Source: Ceratothoa steindachneri
Lineage: Eukaryota > Arthropoda > Malacostraca > Isopoda > Cymothoidae
Direction of reading: 5' to 3'
Assembly: GCA_963969495.1 (NCBI GenBank)
Contig: OZ018328.1
Coordinates: 127,488,045 to 127,552,044 of the forward strand
Length of the DNA stretch: 64,000 nucleotides
Position numbers and translations under genes: made by a program. Under the pieces are notes generated by a model. That model did not search any database. It worked only from the letters and a program-made list of their open reading frames with translations, and had not been told where the DNA came from. Below, in pieces: positions 7,441-64,000 of this stretch. Within the stretch, counting starts at the first letter, position 1, and each line of letters starts with the position of its first letter.

Positions 7441-8285
7441 CAATGGGCGGAAACTCCGGTCATTCCGTAGTACAAATACTAGCGGACGCCGCTCTCTCTA
7501 TGACATAGTCACAGAGAGTTCTTTCTAAATTTTCACTTAGGCTCAGCAGTAAGGAATTATACTGCATTCCCATCTGCCAGCCCTTTTCAAACGCCTTTGA
7601 CATATCCCGACAAACAGTGTCCACGTAACTCATTTCCCGTTTGGTTTGGGCTAGCTTTTCCATGATGATATTATAGAGCTTCCCGCCAAATTCCAGGAGT
7701 GAAATCGGACGTTAGTCGTCCTTCAACCTAGGGTCTTTCTCATGCTTCGCCAAGATCATTTTTGCCGTTTTGCAAGTATCTGAACAGTATCCCGTGTTCA
7801 GACAGGCGTTGAATATTCTTCTTATTCCTTCGATGATATAAGCTGGTGCCTTTTTGAAGTTCAATTCTGTAAGCCCTTATTGTCCTGGGTCTTTTAATCA
7901 GAATAAGCGGAGTGCGCCGAGTAGCTCTTCTTCGGTAATTTCGGCGTCTCCGTTCCGCTGTCTGTTCACCTGATGGCAAGGGTTCGTCGTATGTATTTTT
8001 TCGTTCAACTCGTCTATGATGTCGCTTTTGAACTCTATATCGTAGTCTTCGTTTTCTTCTTCAGTTATACTAAGGACTCTTTCCCAATGAGTTCGAAATA
8101 TTTCTTCGATATTTTCCTCATCTGTCTCTATGTTTTCGTCTTCTTTTAATAGCTCAATCTTCTTCTAACCAATCAATTCTTTGAGGCGTCTGATTTTATT
8201 GCAAAATTCTTTGGGCGATGCTTCGTGATCTAGACTATCGATCGCATCATCCCATTGCCTCCATTGTTGTTCAAGGATCATCTGT
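7441..8285 (-). pseudogene. Jockey-like LINE J2: RT core
   Basis: The minus strand contains CRDMSKAFEKGWQMGMQY (about 7550-7625). This is the RT block normally RD-KAFDKVW-GL-YK in this superfamily. Upstream lies EEIFRTHWERVLSITEEEN (about 8060-8125), homologous to the pre-RT segment at 12540-12600 in J3. Several frameshifts and stops interrupt it. It is continuous with the endonuclease on its right. Confidence 0.75.
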
Positions 8286-12060: not shown

Positions 12061-13150
12061 TTTACAGGCTAGCTAACTGGAAAGGATCCTCTGAAAAGCT
12101 AGATATATATCAACATGACATTTTATCCGTAGCGACCTTGGAAGAGATCGACCAGGAGTTTGAGAAACTGGTGGAGGCGATAGTAGAAGCCTACAGATGG
12201 CATGTTCCAACAGCAGAGTTTAGAACACTGCTGCAACTGCTAAGAACTCCTCAAAATAAGATCCTAGAGCAAGATACAGAACTATGAGGGAAGCTATAGA
12301 GAATAATGGTCCCCAAAGAGGAGATCGGGCTCGATTACGGCATGTGAACGAAAAACTGATAAAGGCAACGGCAGTAGAAAAAAGTATAAGATGGGGTAGA
12401 TTTGTAGAGGCAATAGATAGCGAAATCAACCCTAACAAGCTATGGAATAAGATCAACATAGCTAGGGTAATGAAATACCCAACACTTAACATTTAAATAA
12501 GTCAGGATGGAGGAGAAGCCAAAGAACCTCATGAAATTGTAACAATCTTTCGTAAACACTGGAGAAGTGTGTTCGATCTCTCTCCAGAAGGAAATGAAAA
12601 ATTTAATAAGGTACCTGAACTAAGGGTGGTAGAGGAATTAGAATCAAATTGGCGCGAAATTGTTTTAAACAACATTGCATCAGAGACAGTTCTAGAAGAA
12701 GAAAAAATTAAGCCAATTTCTCTACAGAAACTAAAAAGAACAATCAAGAATACCAAGCAGAGGGCGCCCGGTGAGTCAGGGCTAACCAGGGAGAATCTAA
12801 TCTGATCGCTGGATATCTTTTTAGATAAAATAGTATCCTTATTCAATGCTACACTTAGCGCAAGATATTTTCCAGATGAAATGAAAAAGGAAAAAATAAT
12901 TTTGATACTGAATCCGGCAAACCCCCCTAATAATCTAGGTAATTTCAGACCTATAAATTTACTGGAGACAATGGAAAAAATATTAGAAAAACTGATAAAT
13001 ACCAGAATAATAAAACACCCAGAAGAAAGCTCTCAGATACCGACCCATCAACATAGGTTCAGAAAAAATAGAAGCACTGAAACAGCCTTCGCATTCTTAG
13101 TTGAGAAAGTAGCCAGAGCGTAATTTAATAAAAACTACAGGGATATAGTA
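12061..13150 (+). pseudogene. Jockey-like LINE J3: RT, N-terminal half
   Basis: Contains RKHWRSVFDLSPEGNEK (about 12552-12600) and APGESGLTRENLI (about 12766-12801). The fingers motifs LFNATLSARYFPDEMKK, NFRPINLLETMEKI and HRFRKNRSTETAFAF follow (12840-13100). The reading ends at NYRDIV (13133-13150), exactly where a 704-bp insertion begins. The RT resumes at 13861. Confidence 0.85.
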
Positions 13151-13229
13151 TAGGGTCTCTGTAACAAATTCTTTCTCTTGTAGTTTCATATGCTGTGTTA
13201 TGTGATCAGCGAGCTTCCTCAGGATAAAG

Positions 13230-13292
<63 letters not shown>

Positions 13293-13478
13293 TGGATTCT
13301 TTATTCCTTGGTTAATAGCTTGAATAAGCCTTGAAATGGCGAACAGTAATGACACCTTTTCTTCTTGAATAATAATGATAACTCTTTCTGTACTGACCTT
13401 TTCCACAAAAATAAATAGTAAAAAAAACAGTTGAAAGGCCTGAAAGCTACAACGGAGGATCAAATTAAACGAAACAAA

Positions 13479-13510
<32 letters not shown>

Positions 13511-13860
13511 ACAATGGAAGAACCTGGCTTGTCATCGACAGTCAGCACCGTTATTGACGGAGGAATAACATTTTATGAACTAAACAATAAGAAGGTATGC
13601 TAGTGATGCCCTAACACCAGGGGAACCTAGTAAACATTTTCACACTTTTGTAAAACTACCACACATTTAATCACTTTCATTAATTAATTAATTAATTAAT
13701 TTTCCGAATTCTTAAGCACTCAATCAGAGCTCGGATCCAGCGCGCAATTTGAATGTGTAGTAAAGTCAAGTGGAAAATGATAAACGATCCCAGAAGAATT
13801 TGTGTGAACCGTTTAAATCTTTCACTCGAATGTTTACTTGGTTCGACCCCCACAATAGTA
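13145..13860. mobile_element. 704-bp insertion with ATAGTA target duplication
   Basis: ATAGTA occurs at 13145-13150 and 13855-13860, flanking 13151-13854. Dropping the insert plus one ATAGTA joins NYRDIV to LRDVQKAFDKVW in frame, so this is a real insertion. Inside are two TA tracts (13231-13290, 13479-13510), a TTAA run near 13680-13702 and no recognisable protein. The right end reads TTGGTTCGACCCCCACA, which resembles a pol III B box. No terminal inverted repeats are obvious. It could be a SINE-like or other non-autonomous element. Confidence 0.8.
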
Positions 13861-14800
13861 CTCAGAGATGTACAAAAAGCGTTCGATAAAGTTTGGAGGG
13901 TCGGCCTAAGATATAAGATTAGAAGGTTAGGGCTACCCTCAACGATAACTAAGTGTCTATGCCATTATATAACTGATAGATCAGCCTACATCTCAATAGA
14001 GAGTTTCAACGGACTGAATTTCGAAGTCCCACAAGGGGTCCTTCAAGAAGGTTCTATATGTCCGACATTCTAGAGCATAGATACACAATGGATCTACCCA
14101 GCCCATTTAATAAATTGACCCAAAACCTACAATTCTTAGACGATATAACAATAATTGCAAATAGCCCATACAGGCATCCCCAGATGATGGCAAGGATCAC
14201 GGCGGCCGAAATCGCTGACATTAATGTATATGAACGTAAATGGAAAATCAGAACAAATGCGGATAAGTTCACCATTATCCCTAAAAGGTAGGCGAAAGAC
14301 AGACATAATACAAGTAGACAACCACATATATCGTTATGAGAACAAGGACAAAGTACTTGCTCTCAAAATCTCTCGATGCGGATATGGAAAACATGCTAAG
14401 GAAGGAATAAGATTAGCGAAGGATAACTTAAACAAACTATACAAACTTGAAAGTCTAAATTTAGAAAACAAAATAAAGATATACAACTCAATCTGCAGAT
14501 CCCTTTTTCTATACCCAGCTATTCCAATAAATAGACTACACCGAACAAACACAATTAACTCCAAAGGGGTCAAAAGGCAGCAGTATACATCATTTAAAAT
14601 ACAAAAAGAAGAGAATATAAAAAACTAAGCAACCTGCCCCGCGAAATCAAACTTCCTGCTATGAACGTGTCCTTGCATAAAAGAGCTTATAAAATATGAG
14701 AGAAATTAAACGATTTATTAAGCGAAGAAGAAAGAAGAGTCATGTTAAACTTGGATGTCAAATGCTAGAGATAGGGTAGTCTCATGAAAACCTTGTTTTT
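13861..14800 (+). pseudogene. Jockey-like LINE J3: RT, C-terminal half
   Basis: Resumes with LRDVQKAFDKVWRVGLRYK, then FEVPQGVLQEGSICPTF, where an intact RT has a PQG-LSP motif. The catalytic block is FLDDITI at 14133-14150, with leucine in place of the usual Y/F-A before DD. YERKWKIRTNADKF and a C-terminal region (YNSICRSLFLYPAIPINRL, then MNVSLHKRAYKI) follow to about 14760. Frameshifts occur near 14070 and 14290. Confidence 0.82.
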
Positions 14801-34607: not shown

Positions 34608-34679
34608 ATATTTTGAAAACGTGATTTTTCAATCTTTTTTTTAAAGGTAGACAAATAAACTGGTATGAATTATCTATGT

Positions 34680-34964
34680 ATTCTTCACCCCCTCCCTCCT
34701 CCATATCCCCAAACTAACTTTCTCCCAACTATTTATTGCTCCTCCATGCCCCTCTCACCCTCTCTGCATCCCCACCTCTCTCCACCCTCTCTATTCATCG
34801 CGCTTTCTACTCCCACTCTTTATCTGCCTTTATCTCTAAACCCTCTCCATCTCCGTTCTCTCTCCCCATCTCACCCAACTCCCTCGCCCGTCTCCCCCTC
34901 TATCCCCCTCTCCTCCCTCTCGCTCTCCCCATCCTATCTCCCCATTTCTTCCTTTGGAGACCGT
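34680..34964. repeat. Polypyrimidine (C/T) tract
   Basis: About 280 bp that is almost only C and T on the plus strand with scattered A. It directly precedes the CR1-like RT and keeps one frame open by chance. It translates as a low-complexity proline/serine/leucine run. Confidence 0.85.
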
Positions 34965-36270
34965 AGCCACCCATTGAACTACCGACCTATCAGTCTGACT
35001 TCAATAGTCGGTAAACTCATGGAAAGCATCATGGTGGACAAAATGACGTCGCATTTAGACTCAAACCTGCTACTGAGGAGTTCTCAGCACGGCTTCCGAA
35101 GGCAACGGTCATGCCTGACGAACCTTGTGGAATTCATCCACTTCCTCTTCAGTGAGCACGATCGGAACAAGGTGGTGGGTGTGGTCTACTTAGACTTTCA
35201 GAAAGCCTTTGATAAGTTACCACACCGCTGCCTTCTCCGGAAAGTGCGAGCGCTGGGCATAGACGGAAAAGTAGCAGGCTGGATAGAGAACTGGCTAAAT
35301 GGCAGACGGAAACGGGTGGTGCTGAATGGACAGGCTTCTGAGTGGGTGCCAGTTACTAGCGGAGTGCCTCAAAGTTCTATCCTGGGACCACTACTATTCA
35401 TCATCTACGTCAACGACATGGACAGTGACATGGTTACCAAGATTTCTAAATTTGCCGATGATACCAAGCTTGGTATGAACGTTGCAAAGGATGGAATTAC
35501 TGACGACTGCAAGATGATCTTCAGGGATTTGATACGTGGCAAATGCCTTTCAACGTAAACAAATACAAAGTGATGCATATTGGCCACCTAAGTCCCCAAA
35601 CACCCTCTCTATATCCTTAAGGGCACTGCTCTTGAATCCACCAACAATGAAACAGTGTATTGAGGTGAAGAAGAAAGCCCAAAGGATGTTAGGTTATATA
35701 AAGCGACAGTTTGGATATCGGAACAGGGAGATAGTACTGTGTCTGTACAAATCCCTCGTCCGACTGCACCTGCAGTATGCCGTACAAGTTTAGAGTCCTT
35801 CATTTAGAAAGGACATCGCGAGATTTGAACGCGTGCAAGCCAGAACAACCAAACTGATTCCCTCTATCAGAAAGAAAGGTAAGAAGATAGATTAAGGGAA
35901 TTAGATATGTTCTTGCTGGAGACCCGGAGACTAAGTGGTAAGCTAATCGAAGTGTTTAAAATACTTAAAGGCTTCGGCAGAGTGGACTACGGGGATATTT
36001 TCCAGCTCAACAAGGGGAGAACAAGAAATCACGGCTACAAACTTGAATGAATCGATACCACCGTACTCTGTGTGGAAAATTCTCCACATACAGTATCTGT
36101 GGTAGTTGGAACGCACTTCCGACGGAAGTTGTCAACAGTGAATCTGTTGACCAGTTCAAGTCCTTACTAGATAAAGTCTTTCGAAATCACCGTTAAGATC
36201 CTCGCGAGTGATTTTCGAGGTTACCAACGGACACTTTCAAGGATTGCGCTAAAAGTACCCTCCTTGTATG
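34965..36270 (+). pseudogene. CR1-like LINE, reverse transcriptase and C-terminus
   Basis: RT blocks in order: [75 protein letters not shown] (the usual QG is QS) and the catalytic KFADDTK at 35448-35468. This stretch is open for about 195 codons, the best-preserved RT here. After a frameshift near 35535 come CLYKSLVRLHLQYAVQV and FERVQARTTKLIPSIRKK, then a WN-LP ending near 36110-36190. It is 5'-truncated: no endonuclease is present. A 3' UTR follows to about 36270. Confidence 0.88.
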
Positions 36271-40364: not shown

Positions 40365-41640
40365 TATGTATCTTTCATCATCAATGTAGATATTTTCTAT
40401 TTTTTTCTGAACATCCTATTCATCTTAAACTTGTTCCTATTCATACTGATTTTCCATTTTATTTCATATTTCTTAATCCTCCTTATCATTTCTGCAGCAA
40501 AGTTTTCCTGCATATCGCCATCCCTTCAAGTCTATACGGCGATTTTCTTGACATCATCGGCAAAATCGATGTTAAAGCAGCCTTCAAATACAGGTAATGG
40601 GATGTCTGAACTATACACTGAGTATAAGGTTGGACTCAAACACCCTCCATGATGAAGGCTGGCTTCTATTTTGAATTTTTTATTGTTTATGATACACAAT
40701 ATCAATACATGCATATCTTTCCATCATATAATTACAGATTAGTCTTTCTATCTTGTTGATCTTACCTAGTTGTAAGATTTTATATTACAATGTCTGATTA
40801 AACAATGTCGAATGCCTTCTACATATCTCAGCAGAGGATATCAACACTAAACTTGTCTTTTTTTGCTCTACTGATTTTCACAGGAATGATTATGAGGGCC
40901 ATCTCTGTGTTCCTTTTCTGAATCCAAATTGTTTGGAAGTTCCTTTGCCTCCTGGTGCTCTCTTAGTTGCTGATTGATTATTTTTTCAATTATGTTTCCG
41001 ATGACGTAAATTAGCGTGATAGGCATGTAGCTATTAAGGGGTGATGAGCATTCTTATGATTTAAGTAAAAAATCCTTTTTGCGACCTTTAGTTTATCTTG
41101 GAAGTAACCTGTGTTAAGTCAAGCATTTAGTCCTATTGCTATTCTATTTAGTATGTTGCCGGGTGCTTCTTCCTAATTGATCTTGGTAAGTCCTTATCTT
41201 CTTGATGAGTGCTGCGAAAAAAGCGATATTAGTTTCTTGAGATCTTGCTTGGGGATTTTCGGTGCGATTCTGCCATAGGTGTCTTTCCTTGCATCGAGCA
41301 AGTGGTCAGGATTTGTTTGATCGATTTCCTCGTTGAGTGAAACTATATTATGTTCGGAATCGATGCGAAAATCTTTATTTTCCTCTGCGCTTATGTCGAA
41401 AGCCCTCTTTTAATTTTAATTGAATATCGATTCAATCCTATCTTCGTCTTCTATTTAGTATCTTAGTTGTCTTTTCTTTTTATTTTTCTAGTTCCTGCTT
41501 TCACTTTCATTTGATTCACCTTTATCCAAAATTCCTTTAGAGATGCATCATTGGCAATACTTCATAGTGCTTCGTTCCAATTTTCATTTTTTTCCCCGTT
41601 ATTTCCGTAGTCAGGTCTCATTTATATTTTTTCTCATTTT
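40365..41640 (-). pseudogene. Jockey-like LINE J4: RT core
   Basis: On the minus strand, HHGGCLSPTLYSVYSSDIPL and FADDVKK (catalytic box at about 40548-40569), then EIKWKISMNRNKFK. Upstream, to about 41640, the fingers region is visible only in pieces. The reading IENIYIDDERYI at the right flank of the mariner joins YTNMTKVLVLT at its left flank, matching J3. Confidence 0.78.
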
Positions 41641-48240: not shown

Positions 48241-48916
48241 TAACGTGTTTTTTTTCAATTGCTGGAAATTATTTGCGTGGTGTCATCTGCTAACTGGACA
48301 TACAACATGCATTCGTCTGCCGAGTGTGGCAAGTTAATTTTATAGATAGTATATAGTGTCGGAGAAAAGCACCCTCCCTGGGGGAGTCCTGCCTGCAACT
48401 AAAATTCTCTTCCTGATTGGCCATTTATATGTAGAACGTCTTTTCTCTTACCTAAGTAGTTGTATAGTATTCTGCACAGGTTGTTTTGAAGGTTAAGATT
48501 TTAAATCTTGGATTTATGCCGGGCAACCAGCCTTTATCAAATGCCTTGGCAAAATCACGGTAAATGACGTCCACTCTGCTGCCCTTTGCTGTCTCCGTTG
48601 CGATTTTCTCTGCTATGATTATCAGTGCAGTCTCTGTTACTCTCTCGTTCCTAAAACCGTGCTATTGTGTGTTGTATAGATTTTGATCTTCGAGGTGTTA
48701 TTTTACTCACTCGTTTAGAAGTTATTCGAGCACATTTACAAGGATTTCTAATAGTGAAATGGGCATATAGTTTTCTACTTTGACATTTTAGTTTGCCGGG
48801 TTTGAGTAAGAAAATCATTTTCGTGGTTTTAAACGTTTGGAGAAAATAGCCAACGTTTAGGCACGCGTTAAAGATTTTTACAATGGAACTATGCACGTTA
48901 GCTGGTGCATTAATTA
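48241..48916 (-). pseudogene. Jockey-like LINE J6: RT core
   Basis: On the minus strand: NAPANVHSSIVKIFNACLNV and FKTTKMIFLLKPGK, then GFRNERVTETALIII and VIYRDFAKAFDKGWLPGI. AGLPQGGCFSPTLYTIYK and VQLADDTTQI follow (catalytic box with L in place of Y/F, near 48275-48300). The N-terminal side is cut at 48916 by the CACTA-like element and continues at 51288. Confidence 0.82.
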
Positions 48917-49289
48917 CACTGTCCAACAATGATTTTAATACAGAAATGAGAAAGTAGTTTTCTATTGTAGTTTTTGCGTAGATTACGAAAATGACCTTTA
49001 TTTTTCATGAAATGACTTCAGTTTTTTGTAAGCTGCACATTTAATATTTTATTAATATTAGATTATTCAGTATATAGAGGTATGAAATATTTGTTATTAG
49101 TTTTGTTTTATTTAGCAAAAAGTACAAAGATAAGTGGAAACAAAAAGCTTATTCATGAAAATAAATTAATAAGTCTATTTAATACATTTCAGAGTGTGGC
49201 ATTATAAAATATATTTTAAAAAATTAATGAAAATTTAAGATTTTTTTAAAATTGCTGAAATCTATACAATATTCATGAATTTTTAGAAT

Positions 49290-51070
49290 ATTTAGGCTTA
49301 TTTTTATGCACAACATCTTGTCTGTCTCTGTGAATAATCCAGCAGAAGTCAGCAAGCATTTATGGACTTCATTTTACTTTATAATGATTTTCTATAGTAG
49401 CAATATCTTGGTGGAATCTTTCACCATGCTCATCGCTGACGTCTGCTGGATTCTCTGCAAAGAAAAACGGATGGGAATGCAAAGAATGTACCTTTAGTGA
49501 CATAATCCCAACTAATTATAAAACCTAATCAAATTCTAAACAAGAATATGGTAATTTTCTGATTTATGCCTTCCAAGGAGACCATTACATACACCTTTGA
49601 AACTATGCCAGGACTCAAATTCTGGATTGCTCAATTTTGCCTCAAACTCAGTATAAGTTGTCGAATCTGAAGCGCAATAAAGATTACTTCTTTAATCTTA
49701 TCATTAATAATATTAGGAACTTTTGTTTTTAAATGTAAGAAGGATGGCTGGTCATGCTTTAAGGCTTTCACAAATTGTTTCATTAAACCTAATTTTATGT
49801 GAAGTGGTGGTAAAATTATGTTTTCCTTAGGAACCAATGTTTCACGTATGACATTATGACAATCTACTTTTGTCTCTTCTCTTAAAGGCCATTCTAAGCG
49901 TATGTAATGTTCTCCCCGAGCTCTACTGTCCCACTGGCACAAAAAACACATGAATTTTGTGTAGCCAGAATGCAGGCCATTGAAAATGGCTACTACCTCA
50001 AGGTCAGCACAAATCAACCATTTATGTTCATTGTATTTAATGCTTTATAAAATGAAATCTAAATTATCGATGGTAGTTTATTTCCATTATGCAAAATCAC
50101 GGCTTTACTACTATATAAAGAAGCGTCAATGAAAAGTCTTCATTGAATGTGTTCATAATGTATATCTAATTCTTCAAAGAGACGTGGAATATAATTACAG
50201 TATTATAAATTGTTGTCAAATGAAAATTTGCCATGTAAATTGTTTGATCGAATGCGAAACTTAGTATTCGAACATCTTATGCTACTATCCTTTTTCTTTC
50301 AGTCTCGAGGCCAGTCATTCACTCTGTTGCTTTGTTAAGTTTAGATCTCTTACAAGATCATCTAGAACAAGTTGTGAGAAAGGTTTTGGTGTAGTATCAA
50401 CAGTTTCAGGAACATAAATTTTAGTTTCTGGTTCACATGATTCCATATCTGATTCATCAGAGTTAGACAAAACAATTTCTGCAGGTGGTTCAGGTACTGG
50501 AATGTCTTTTGAGTGAGGTATAGGCCAGATAGCAGATATAAGGTTGGGATATACCACAGCTGAAGCGCACTTCGTTGATTTACCTAGATGTATGGAAATT
50601 ATATGCATAAATTTAAATTTATGGACATATATGTGATTACAATGAAGAGGTTCTAAACTTAATTAATTTTATATTGTACAAAAAAATAATACAGTATACT
50701 ACTCAAAATATAGATCGAGTGAACAATAAACAATTACTTACGTTGTATGTCTACCACACAGAAATAGAAGTCAGATCTTGGGGCTCTCGCCATACCATTG
50801 GAACACCAAAATGAAGGCGCTTTTTTTTACTTTAGACCATTTTGATAATGAATAAAAGCATGTCATGCAACAGATATGTGGTGCCCATGGCTTATCTTGG
50901 TCGCCAATTTTACATCCAAAATACAAATTATATAGTTTTTTCGATACCGAAGAAATTTTTCTTTGATGTTTTTTAAATGTTACTGAACCACATATGTAGC
51001 AGAATTTATCTGGGCTATTTTTAGACTGTCCTGTTGGTATTTTAATTAAAATTGTTGCTTTTATTTAAAA
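49290..51070 (-). pseudogene. Transposase-like gene of the CACTA-like element, spliced
   Basis: Minus strand, exon 1 (about 51040-50742): SPDKFCYICGSVTFKK, LYNLYFGCKIGDQDKPWAPH, ICCMTCFYSLSKWSKVKK, a VPMVWREPQD stretch in another frame, then DFYFCVVDIQ. This is a Cys/His-rich zinc-binding domain. The intron is 50741-50584. Exon 2: STKCASAVVYPNLISAIWPI, DLVRDLNLTKQQSE, FIDASLYSSKAVILHNGNK, ICADLEVVAIFNGLHSGYTK, FLCQWDSRARGEHY, ILPPLHIKLGLMKQFVKA, then MSLKVHSLHSHPFFF and DEHGERFHQDIATIENHY. I recognise this order from memory as a multi-copy, unannotated arthropod family. At least two frameshifts in exon 1 and several stops in exon 2 make this copy dead. Confidence 0.8.
50584..50741 (-). other. 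Intron (158 bp) of the transposase-like gene
   Basis: Donor GTAAGT follows GACATACAAC (exon end 50742). The acceptor ATACATCTAG ends at 50584. Joining the exons gives VVDIQRKSTKCASAVVYPN with no break, in line with the remembered family pattern. The intron shows this copy moved as DNA, not through spliced RNA. Confidence 0.8.
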
Positions 51071-51287
51071 ATTTATTTAGTTAAATAACCTGAAAATAAG
51101 AAATAAAAGAATAAATTTCATTAAAATCATCAAAATTTGAAAAAAATAGTAATTGGCAAATTGCAAAAAACTGGAGTCACTGCGATAAAAATGACTCCCA
51201 TTTTTTAAATCTACACATTTATACTACATTAAAAAATGTTATTCTAATCTTTGTGGTCGATAAAAAGTTAAATTTTGTTAGATAGTG

Positions 51288-51999
51288 TTAGGTGCGCTTT
51301 TGTTAGGCCACTCATACCCAGTGCCTTCTGTTTTAATGTTTTCACGGTTGTTATTCCTCCATCGTGAAGAGGGCACCCTCCCCTTGGGGAGTGTCTCTCT
51401 CCTCATTAACGCGTCTATATTGTGCCATATTTTCTCGTTGCTCTTCAAGGTTTTTCAGTATCTCTTCCTCATATTCTCTGTTATACTCAGCCTACTCTTT
51501 AAGTGAAATGGAGAATATTTTCTTCCAGTGGCTTCGGAAGTGCTCTTGGAGTTCGTTCGTTTGTTCTACTTCCTTGTTTGGAATCTTTAGTTTTATTCCT
51601 TCCTTAGGTTGCAATCCTCGTAGTTTTTAATATTGAGTCTAGAATTTCTTTGGATCTCCTTCTATTTCCATTTTCTTTCTATTATGTGATTCCAGACCTG
51701 ATTCATATTTACTTTTATTAGAATGTTTATTTGTCTCCGAGTTTCTCTTAATCTTTGGTATCTTGCCTGTGTGTTTCCTAATTCTAATATTTCTTTTATT
51801 AAGTTGTATATTCTTCCATTTTCCTCTTTGTTTCCTTGTTCCACGTGAGTACTGGTATATTTTTATATTCTGTTGTCCAGGTGTAAAGGTTGCTTGCTTC
51901 TACAATCTTGGCGATAACTTGTAAATGGGTGTCCTTCTCCTCAGCTTATTGGTTATTTAGCGAGCCAGCCACAAGCGCGCTCAGATATCCTTTATACTT
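51288..51999 (-). pseudogene. Jockey-like LINE J6: segment between endonuclease and RT
   Basis: The minus strand at 51290-51640 reads LQEHFRSHWKKIFSISLKE, ENMAQYRRVNEER and TVKTLKQKALGMSGLTKAHL. It is colinear with 12540-12800 of J3. The reading stops at the transposon junction at 51288 and continues at 48916. Confidence 0.8.
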
Positions 52000-55639: not shown

Positions 55640-56165
55640 ACAAGCAGAGCGGCGGCTAAATGGTAAACTTTGTCCAGGATGTCTCCAAGTTCCACTACTT
55701 GTCCATGACCAAGCACCCAGATTCTGTGATGAAGCTGAGCGTCGAGGCTTCGAATGGTGAGAAGATGCCGCCGGTGTGGTTCGACTCTGGTTACAGGCTC
55801 ACCGCGGCCGATTCCAGGGACATCTTGGGCACGAAATTCCTGCCGTTGGTGAGAAAGATCACGAAGAATGCGGAGTACGTCTTTCAGCAGGGCAGTGTCC
55901 CGGCCCACACGGCCAAGACAGTGCAAGTGGTTGGAGTCGAACATGAACTTTTGGTCGAAGGAATTTTGGCTGCCCCATTGCCCGCCCCCAATCCCCTCGA
56001 GTCAAGTGTGTGGGTGCATATCAAAAGGAAGAACTCCTCGAATAGTTGAGGTCCTCCATCAAACGCGTGTGGGCCAACATGAGAGAAGACTTCATCTCCA
56101 ACGTGTGCGTGGCCTTCAAGTCTTTCCTGGAGTGAGTGCTCGGTGCTGCGGGCAACCACATTGAT
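55640..56165 (+). pseudogene. Tc1/mariner-superfamily transposase, C-terminal fragment
   Basis: A 129-codon open frame (55660-56049) contains GEKMPPVWFDSGYRLTAADS and EYVFQQGSVPAHTAKTVQ, where the catalytic D of QQDG-PAHTA is G. Frame shifts then give WLESNMNFWSKEFW and SSVWVHIKRK, with the C-terminus VWANMREDFISNVCVAF in a third frame. It belongs to a different lineage from the mariners at 31.6, 39.1 and 62.1 kb. No inverted ends identified. Confidence 0.78.
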
Positions 56166-62114: not shown

Positions 62115-63465
62115 TTGGGTTGAGGAATATGTTCTTGCGGTTTTAATCAAATGTATTCATCACCATTAATTTTTTTTATAAAAACTTCATTTTTAATTGA
62201 TAGCAATATGCAATTTAATCAATAATGTATTCTCCGTGGTTATTTACGACTTCTTCCCAACGTTCAACTAGTTTTTTGATGCCTCTGCAATAAAAATCTC
62301 TGGATTTTGACTCGAAGAATTTGTCTAACCAGGTTCTTAATTCTACATCAGTATTGAACGAAACGCCGCGCTAAATTATTGGAGAGCAATCATAACAGAT
62401 GGAAATCCGATGGAGCCAAGTCTGTCGAATATGGAGGATGCCGTAGGATTTGCCAATTAAGCGTTTGGATGGCGTCTTTTTTCATATTGGCAATGTGAGG
62501 ACGAGCAGTGTCGTGTTGCAGAAGGACTCCATCACGAAGATGAGGTCGCTTTTCACGAATAGCTTCGGCGAGTCTATACATTTGTTGAACGTAGAGTTCT
62601 GCATTGACAATCACGTTGTTCTCAAGGAGCTCATAAAGAATGATGCCTTCACAATCCCCCTACACACAGCATTGTCTTTCGTGGATAAAGTCCTTGCTTT
62701 AATTGCGGAAGTGTTTTTTATTGGTTCTAAGCCATTGTTTTCGATGGTTCATGTTGACCTAAACACACCACTTTTGGTCGCCAGTGATGATGCGGTGAAG
62801 AAATCTGTCCTTACATCCACGAGTAGCCTTGTGAAGAGCAAGCAAACCTGCGGCAATCGTGGAGCGTTGAAGTTTGTTGCTTTCGCTCAAAGCGTGCGGA
62901 ACCCATGTACCGAGTTTTTTAACTTTTCTCATCGAATGAAGGTGATTTATTACAGTTTTCTGATCACACACCAATTGTACAGGCAATTCTTTAGTCGATT
63001 GACGAGGATTTTCTTGAAGAAAGTCGTTCAATCGATCTTCATCCAACTTAATGGGGCAACCAGTACGTTCTTCGTCATTAAGATTGAAATGATAAACCAT
63101 TTTCTCCGCACAAATATCGCGACGAGCTTTGGCTGCGTTTGCATTGTTCCCGTCTCGATTCAAAATGAATAACAAGTGTCGAAAATGCGCCTTTCTTTCA
63201 ACTTGACATTCCATTTTGAGGGTACAGAACAAAAATTAAATTAACACAACTTTTAAATAAACCACAATGACTTATTACTCAACTTTAAGACGTAGCCTAA
63301 GCGAAAGCCTAATAGTCTACGCTATTAAGAGACGTAGCCCAACCTTTACAAATTTTGCTCTCATTATTTATTATTGTTTCTTAATATGTGTACAAATCAC
63401 GTCAACCAAAATTAAATCAACAGAACATTAAAAAAAAACCCGCAAGAACTTATTTCTCAACCTAA
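62115..63465 (-). pseudogene. mariner transposon, nearly complete
   Basis: TA at 62113-62114 and 63466-63467, with inverted ends TTGGGTTGAGGAATATGTTC and TTAGGTTGAGAAATAAGTTC. The element is 1351 bp. Minus-strand coding starts at about 63210: a shortened N-terminus, then ENPRQSTKELPVQLVCDQKT and KKLGTWVPHALSESNK. Then come TGDQKWCV (first catalytic D), LLQHDTARPH (second) and YSTDLAPSDFHLL (third, 34 residues on). All three acids are kept. One stop follows TGDQKWCV, a small N-terminal deletion and a few other breaks are present. Typical of the mariner DD34D group. Confidence 0.92.
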
Positions 63466-63479
63466 TATATAAAAAAGGT

Positions 63480-64000
63480 ACTACTCACCTAACTATTAAT
63501 TTCTTCAAAAATGTTTGAGACTCTTGCTCTTGCGCTTGTACGAGGATATAGGATCCTCCCGTTGTAGGAACCAGCACTAGTCACCCATGTGCATGTGCTT
63601 CGCATTGTATTGGCCAACTAAGTGTTCATCTCTTTTCGGCCACCTTTTGACAATATTCTGATTCCTGTCGTCACGGCTGTTACGTAGGCCTAAGAAGCGA
63701 ATATTCTTTTTATATCCTAGCTGCAGTCCAAGAAATAAAGAAATTACCTTTAGATTCGAGTAATGAAAACCTTCCAAATTAAATTTTATTGAGTCATATT
63801 TCTCTATCATCCCCAAAATAAGTGCGACAAGAATTGAAGGGCTTTTGTTACCATTATGTAGCAACACAACTTTATGGCTAGCAGTGCTTGCATCGATGAA
63901 TCGTCTTCATTCATCAGGTAAATGCTCGTTTCCTAGCTAATTCATTAGGCCATTAACATTAGTACAGAAACAAGTACCATCTTCTTCTTAAATAGAAGGC
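63480..64000 (-). pseudogene. Second relic of the CACTA-like element gene
   Basis: The minus-strand frame (63577-63867) reads VVLLHNGNKSPSILVALIL, NLKVISLFLGLQLGYKK, then after a deletion MHMGD-CWFLQRED and SSYKRKSKSL. Upstream toward 63960, RRFIDASTASHK matches FIDASLYSSK of the copy at 49.3-51.1 kb. The part between the LGLQLGY block and the C-terminus is largely missing. The gene runs off the window edge. No CACT end was found nearby. Confidence 0.75.

Follow-up and report, generated by a model that had tools for sequence, protein, structure and literature searches.

The analysed window, a 64,000-nucleotide stretch of contig OZ018328.1 from the isopod Ceratothoa steindachneri, contains a 2371-bp unit that splits the reverse transcriptase gene of a long interspersed nuclear element (LINE). 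The unit very probably represents an inactive Chapaev3 DNA transposon of the CMC group. The initial annotation had described inverted ends with TTA on both sides, a second inverted block and a single gene, and all of these were recovered (Table 1): the gene lies on the minus strand and has two exons separated by a GT..AG intron, and the only open reading frames (ORFs) of at least 80 aa wholly within the unit are pieces of this transposase gene. The short terminal pair is absent from the 25 longest of the 139 inverted pairs given by a general repeat search, so the terminal inverted ends alone are no proof. The subterminal block (positions 24-151 from the left end against 34-163 from the right) reaches a local alignment score of 43, compared with a maximum of 23 in 500 single-base shuffles of one end, and in other copies the stretch at element positions 42-134 has a reverse match at the far end (76-80%).

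As had been proposed, excision of the unit together with one TTA restores the frame of the split reverse transcriptase, and the joined flanks align without gaps to three other reverse transcriptase copies of the window (12740-12919, E 3e-8; 7885-7751, E 2e-7; 41193-41062, E 5e-4). Searched against the genome, the joined flanks gave at least 42 matches from the best 40 of 310 candidates, two of them being the window's own halves. The eight best empty LINE copies, two of which resemble each other around the junction, span it at 83-89% identity; a single TTA stands there in seven (TTAT in six, TTAA in one) and a deletion in the eighth. Six of the eight empty sites read ATTAT, which is thus the most likely original target; the G following the right TTA in the window would be a later change. 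Elsewhere, decayed LINE reverse transcriptases related to one another and to the one that the transposon interrupts (48417-51790, minus strand) were observed at 7562-8233 (minus), 12515-13998 (plus) and 40807-41193 (minus), and a further LINE reverse transcriptase ORF lies at 34659-35558 (plus; RVT_1, E 1.2e-26).

Copies of the element were collected from the whole genome (3.93 Gb, 529 contigs), where at least 64 matches were obtained from the best 40 of 3137 candidates, many spanning base 1 to base 2371. The sample studied comprises 36 usable copies with flanks and the window copy (n = 37); these were chosen for strong matches, and the fractions given here therefore describe good copies. Both terminal bases were aligned in 19 of the 37, one or both being missed in the other 18. 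The expectation that copies share ends and TTA/TAA duplications was borne out: an identical 3-bp duplication flanks 13 of the 19 both-end copies (8 TTA, 5 TAA), compared with a chance rate of 0.023 for a match of random 3-mer flanks, and six have no exact duplication. All 13 duplications are preceded by A and 10 are followed by T, while the 19 copies start with CAC in 17 cases and end with GTG in every case. Similarity running on into the flanks had been named as evidence to the contrary; when the flanks of 18 of the 19 copies were compared in all pairs, a single similarity appeared (E 2e-4), between a left and a right flank and away from the ends. Pairwise identity of the 19 copies averages 0.92, with no pair above 0.94 and the lowest mean (0.906) in the window copy. 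Such even divergence without a close pair is as would be expected from one burst followed by long decay. Scans of viral contigs and genome contigs yielded no relatives with DNA from other hosts, and the terminal inverted repeats and duplications are thus verified in one genome.

On the minus strand of the window, a profile built from 60 relatives finds matches in one frame after another between 51025 and 49285. The reading frame of exon 1 is broken near 50843, and frameshifts and stops interrupt the gene, yet the codons of the key residues are kept. Both splice regions are present in 30 of the 36 other copies (fuzzy match). The transposase protein gave at least 120 matches in its own genome (best 80 of 103,590 candidates), of differing identities and mostly with internal stops; the long ones are 48-83% identical to a mantis-shrimp protein. 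Few of these matches run through in one piece and most consist of exon 2 alone or of exons 1 and 2 apart, so that the presence of the intron seems variable.

Table 1. Features of the transposon, its insertion site and a related transposase gene in the window
Feature	Position	Strand	Basis or remark
Decayed DNA transposon, very probably Chapaev3-type	48917..51287 (2371 bp)	gene on -	19/37 copies reach both ends; flanks differ
Target-site duplication TTA, left	48914..48916		read from sequence and duplication table of copies
Target-site duplication TTA, right	51288..51290		next base G (T there in 6/8 empty sites)
Left terminal inverted repeat CACTGTCCAACAA	48917..48929	+	
Right terminal inverted repeat CACTATCTAACAA	51275..51287	-	reading inward from 51287
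Left subterminal inverted block, includes TGACTTCAGTTTTTTG	48940..49067	+	local alignment
Right subterminal inverted block, includes TGACTCCAGTTTTTTG	51125..51254	-	local alignment
Host LINE reverse transcriptase, part before insertion point	51288..51790	-	500 bases tested
Host LINE reverse transcriptase, part after insertion point	48417..48916	-	500 bases tested
Exon 1: N-terminal zinc domain, predicted ZAD-like fold	50742..51025	-	profile match (upper limit = profile end), splice site, model and PDB search
Intron, 158 bp, GTAAGT..TAG	50584..50741	-	splice sites
Exon 2: DDE catalytic core	49285..50583	-	profile matches in successive frames; frameshifts and stops
Codon of first catalytic Asp (FID)	50125..50127	-	aligned to D254 of P0127
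Codon of second catalytic Asp (ICADL)	50003..50005	-	aligned to D308 of P0127
C(2)C motif CFLC	49937..49948	-	C327/C330 of P0127
LH motif within LPPLHIKLG	49799..49804	-	L375/H376 of P0127
H(4)H motif HSLHSH	49471..49488	-	H484/H489 of P0127
Codon of catalytic Glu (GERFHQDI)	49420..49422	-	E506 of P0127
Second, different, more distant decayed member of the same transposase family	63520..64000, past window end to ~64654	-	profile matches; profile positions 365-528 missing

The gene belongs to a very large protein family. Searches returned 768 proteins with a core piece as query, 1781 clusters with nearly the whole of exon 2, and 1704 matches at E<=1e-100 with a moth relative; the best 120 of each of these three listings were inspected. 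Among the matches listed, full-length relatives mostly have 550-570 residues, many sit on contigs whose length (2-3 kb) is near that of the element, and the source names read "uncharacterized" or "hypothetical" protein. The named hosts include mantis shrimp, spiders, a pseudoscorpion, moths and a fly, as well as a poison frog and a glass sponge, which makes the label "arthropod" of the initial annotation too narrow; one relative labelled Klebsiella (P0015) is taken as contamination. In alignment A3 (60 rows, 12 of them fragments; numbering of protein P0127), every one of the 48 full-length rows has the same catalytic and metal-binding-type residues, namely D254, D308, E506, C327/C330, H376 and H484/H489. 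No fitting Pfam family was found for three window pieces, for 24 members at E<=10 or for 85 members at E<=1 (25 of 33 families inspected), and for this reason annotators keep calling the family a gene. NCBIfam gave one chance match for five proteins (E 0.07), the PDB one chance match by sequence to the A3 profile (E 1.7) and none to alignment A4, and Rfam no match in the window at gathering scores.

The model of P0127 has a RAG1/Transib-like core fold over approximately 320-350 residues (Foldseek, VIA). The transposase core is thus predicted to adopt the fold of RAG1, Transib and BbRAGL, with which it also has in common the catalytic DDE residues, the C(2)C and H(4)H motifs and the CAC ends; in contrast, identity in the structural alignments is 11-14%, and no RAG2 partner was seen. 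Recombinases of the RAG1/Transib type make 5-bp duplications, whereas the duplication here is of 3 bp, unlike that of Transib proper. The D-D-E, C(2)C and H(4)H residues together with the predicted fold support membership of the family in the wider CMC (CMCT) group, and the earlier view of the uncharacterised family as a transposase lineage agrees with them. The names of the relatives would also suit a host gene carried as cargo by an unrelated transposon. This explanation is scarcely credible, given that copies align along the element with the gene included, that the gene has a DDE core, that no other gene was seen in the unit, and that so many of the listed relatives occupy contigs of element size.

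The class Chapaev3 already has a name (Kapitonov and Jurka 2008, cited in PMC4411706; see also PMC4079192), and the term "CMC-Chapaev-3" is used in eight papers; the family can accordingly be called unannotated with respect to the protein names seen but not with respect to its class. As described by Zhang et al. 2014 (PMC4079192), Chapaev3 elements have CAC/GTG ends, a TWA duplication between A and T, and a transposase in which the DDE residues are accompanied by C(2)C, LH and H(4)H motifs. The window element shares the A[TWA]T target, the CAC..GTG ends, all these motifs and an animal host with the Merrow, Garfield and Conan elements of that text, and its 2371 bp and the usual 550-570 aa of its relatives differ little from the figures given there for complete Merrow and Garfield elements (2289-2455 bp, 554-562 aa). 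Two differences were noted: the T after the duplication, described there as constant, follows only 10 of 13 duplications here, and the intron stands after about 100 residues rather than after 78 as in Garfield and Merrow. The element is best regarded as a new Chapaev3 family.

This placement follows the published description rather than direct alignment to named Chapaev3 proteins, no Pfam model fits, and the intron position differs; all three would agree with a separate lineage beside Chapaev3 in the CMCT group that has inherited its ends, target and motifs from a common ancestor. Such a lineage appears very improbable in view of the published ends, duplication and motifs found here and of the sizes near those of Merrow and Garfield. 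Sequences of Merrow, Garfield, Conan or Repbase Chapaev3 were not found in viral contigs, genome contigs or BFVD. Since BFVD gave no relative (best E 0.069), the bracovirus Chapaev3 of PMC4079192 could not be used as a yardstick. The family PF06918 (DUF1280), given for Chapaev in PMC3985635, was not matched by any of 24 members (E<=10), in a search whose HMMER filters drop most matches above ~0.1.

The unit had been called CACTA-like and its gene possibly a divergent CMC branch. CMC holds at the level of the group, and a CACTA/EnSpm transposon proper would likewise have the CACTG ends, the 2-3-bp (here 3-bp) duplication and the CMC-type residues. However, Transposase_21 (PF02992) was unmatched in the 24 members (E<=10) and in the 25 families inspected for the 85 members (E<=1), and TWA within A..T, the CAC ends, LH and H(4)H fit the published Chapaev3 features, which makes CACTA proper very improbable. 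PIF/Harbinger elements also make 3-bp duplications, and TWA is seen here; still, CAC ends, C(2)C and H(4)H motifs and a predicted RAG1 fold speak against them, and no second (Myb/SANT) gene was seen, the ORFs of at least 80 aa inside the unit being accounted for by the transposase. We regard such an origin as extremely unlikely.

For the N-terminal exon (50801-51025, minus strand), the model combined with a PDB search predicted a fold like that of the solved ZADs of insect zinc-finger transcription factors. The ZAD family of Pfam (PF07776, zf-AD) matched 8 of 85 members at E<=1 (best E 0.0014) and, among ten proteins searched singly, two (18.1 and 19.0 bits, below the Pfam cut-off of 28); these hidden Markov model (HMM) matches are weak but in register. 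The N-terminal profile A6 retrieved one FYVE chain from the PDB sequences (E 0.27) and no ZAD, and RAG1_imp_bd matched weakly in 2 of 85 members (best E 0.17) and in 1 of 17 pieces (E 4.9). As sequence matches in PDB and Pfam were not significant, the links to ZAD and to RAG1 rest on predicted folds and weak HMM matches. In common with the ZAD of ZAD-C2H2 factors are two Cys pairs 40 residues apart; in the transposases a third conserved CxxC pair follows (alignment A3), and the domain is fused to a transposase where the transcription factors have C2H2 fingers. We tentatively suggest, as possible rather than probable, that the exon encodes a ZAD sharing one ancestor with that of the ZAD-C2H2 proteins, the domain having most likely been captured by transcription factors from such a transposon. 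In the titles and abstract openings of the papers listed (20 of 266, 12 of 236 and 5 of 5), no ZAD-transposase link is apparent; the words "ZAD" and "Chapaev" each occur a single time in PMC7397244. A THAP domain like that of the P element transposase, borne in addition by two Drosophila ZAD-ZNF proteins (PMC9810180), is a separate matter. If the ZAD link holds, it would provide an origin for the most abundant class of insect transcription factors, in which ZAD is the dimerisation domain, and would also tie ZAD to the N-terminus of RAG1 through the "Chapa" complex zinc finger described for Chapaev3 in PMC4411706.

The features of the element suggest how it may have moved. An intact transposase would bind the inverted ends of about 130 bp, probably as a dimer and aided by the N-terminal zinc (ZAD-like) domain; cleavage at CAC/GTG would fall to its RNase H core, which resembles that of RAG1 and carries two Asp and a Glu. 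Insertion would follow at ATWAT, cut with a 3-bp stagger, and repair of the gaps would yield the TTA or TAA duplication; the donor flank may end up sealed in a hairpin, a step that RAG and Transib take and that is suggested here by the fold. The present copy would have inserted into the LINE reverse transcriptase gene and then decayed. The Chapaev3 assignment names a family of 1781 clusters from one query so far "uncharacterized" or "hypothetical" in the names seen. With a confident RAG1/Transib-like model of a Chapaev3-type transposase, the kinship proposed between CMC, Transib and RAG1 can be put to the test at the bench.

Among the other features of the window, the ORFs at 55660-56049 (plus) and 62759-63235 (minus), without a Pfam match at E<=0.01, look by eye like pieces of mariner-type transposases. 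Near the 5' side of the second family member, at 63520-64000, a segment (L029:2246-2263) resembles the element end (94% over 18 bases, E 0.36) and is followed by TTAT.
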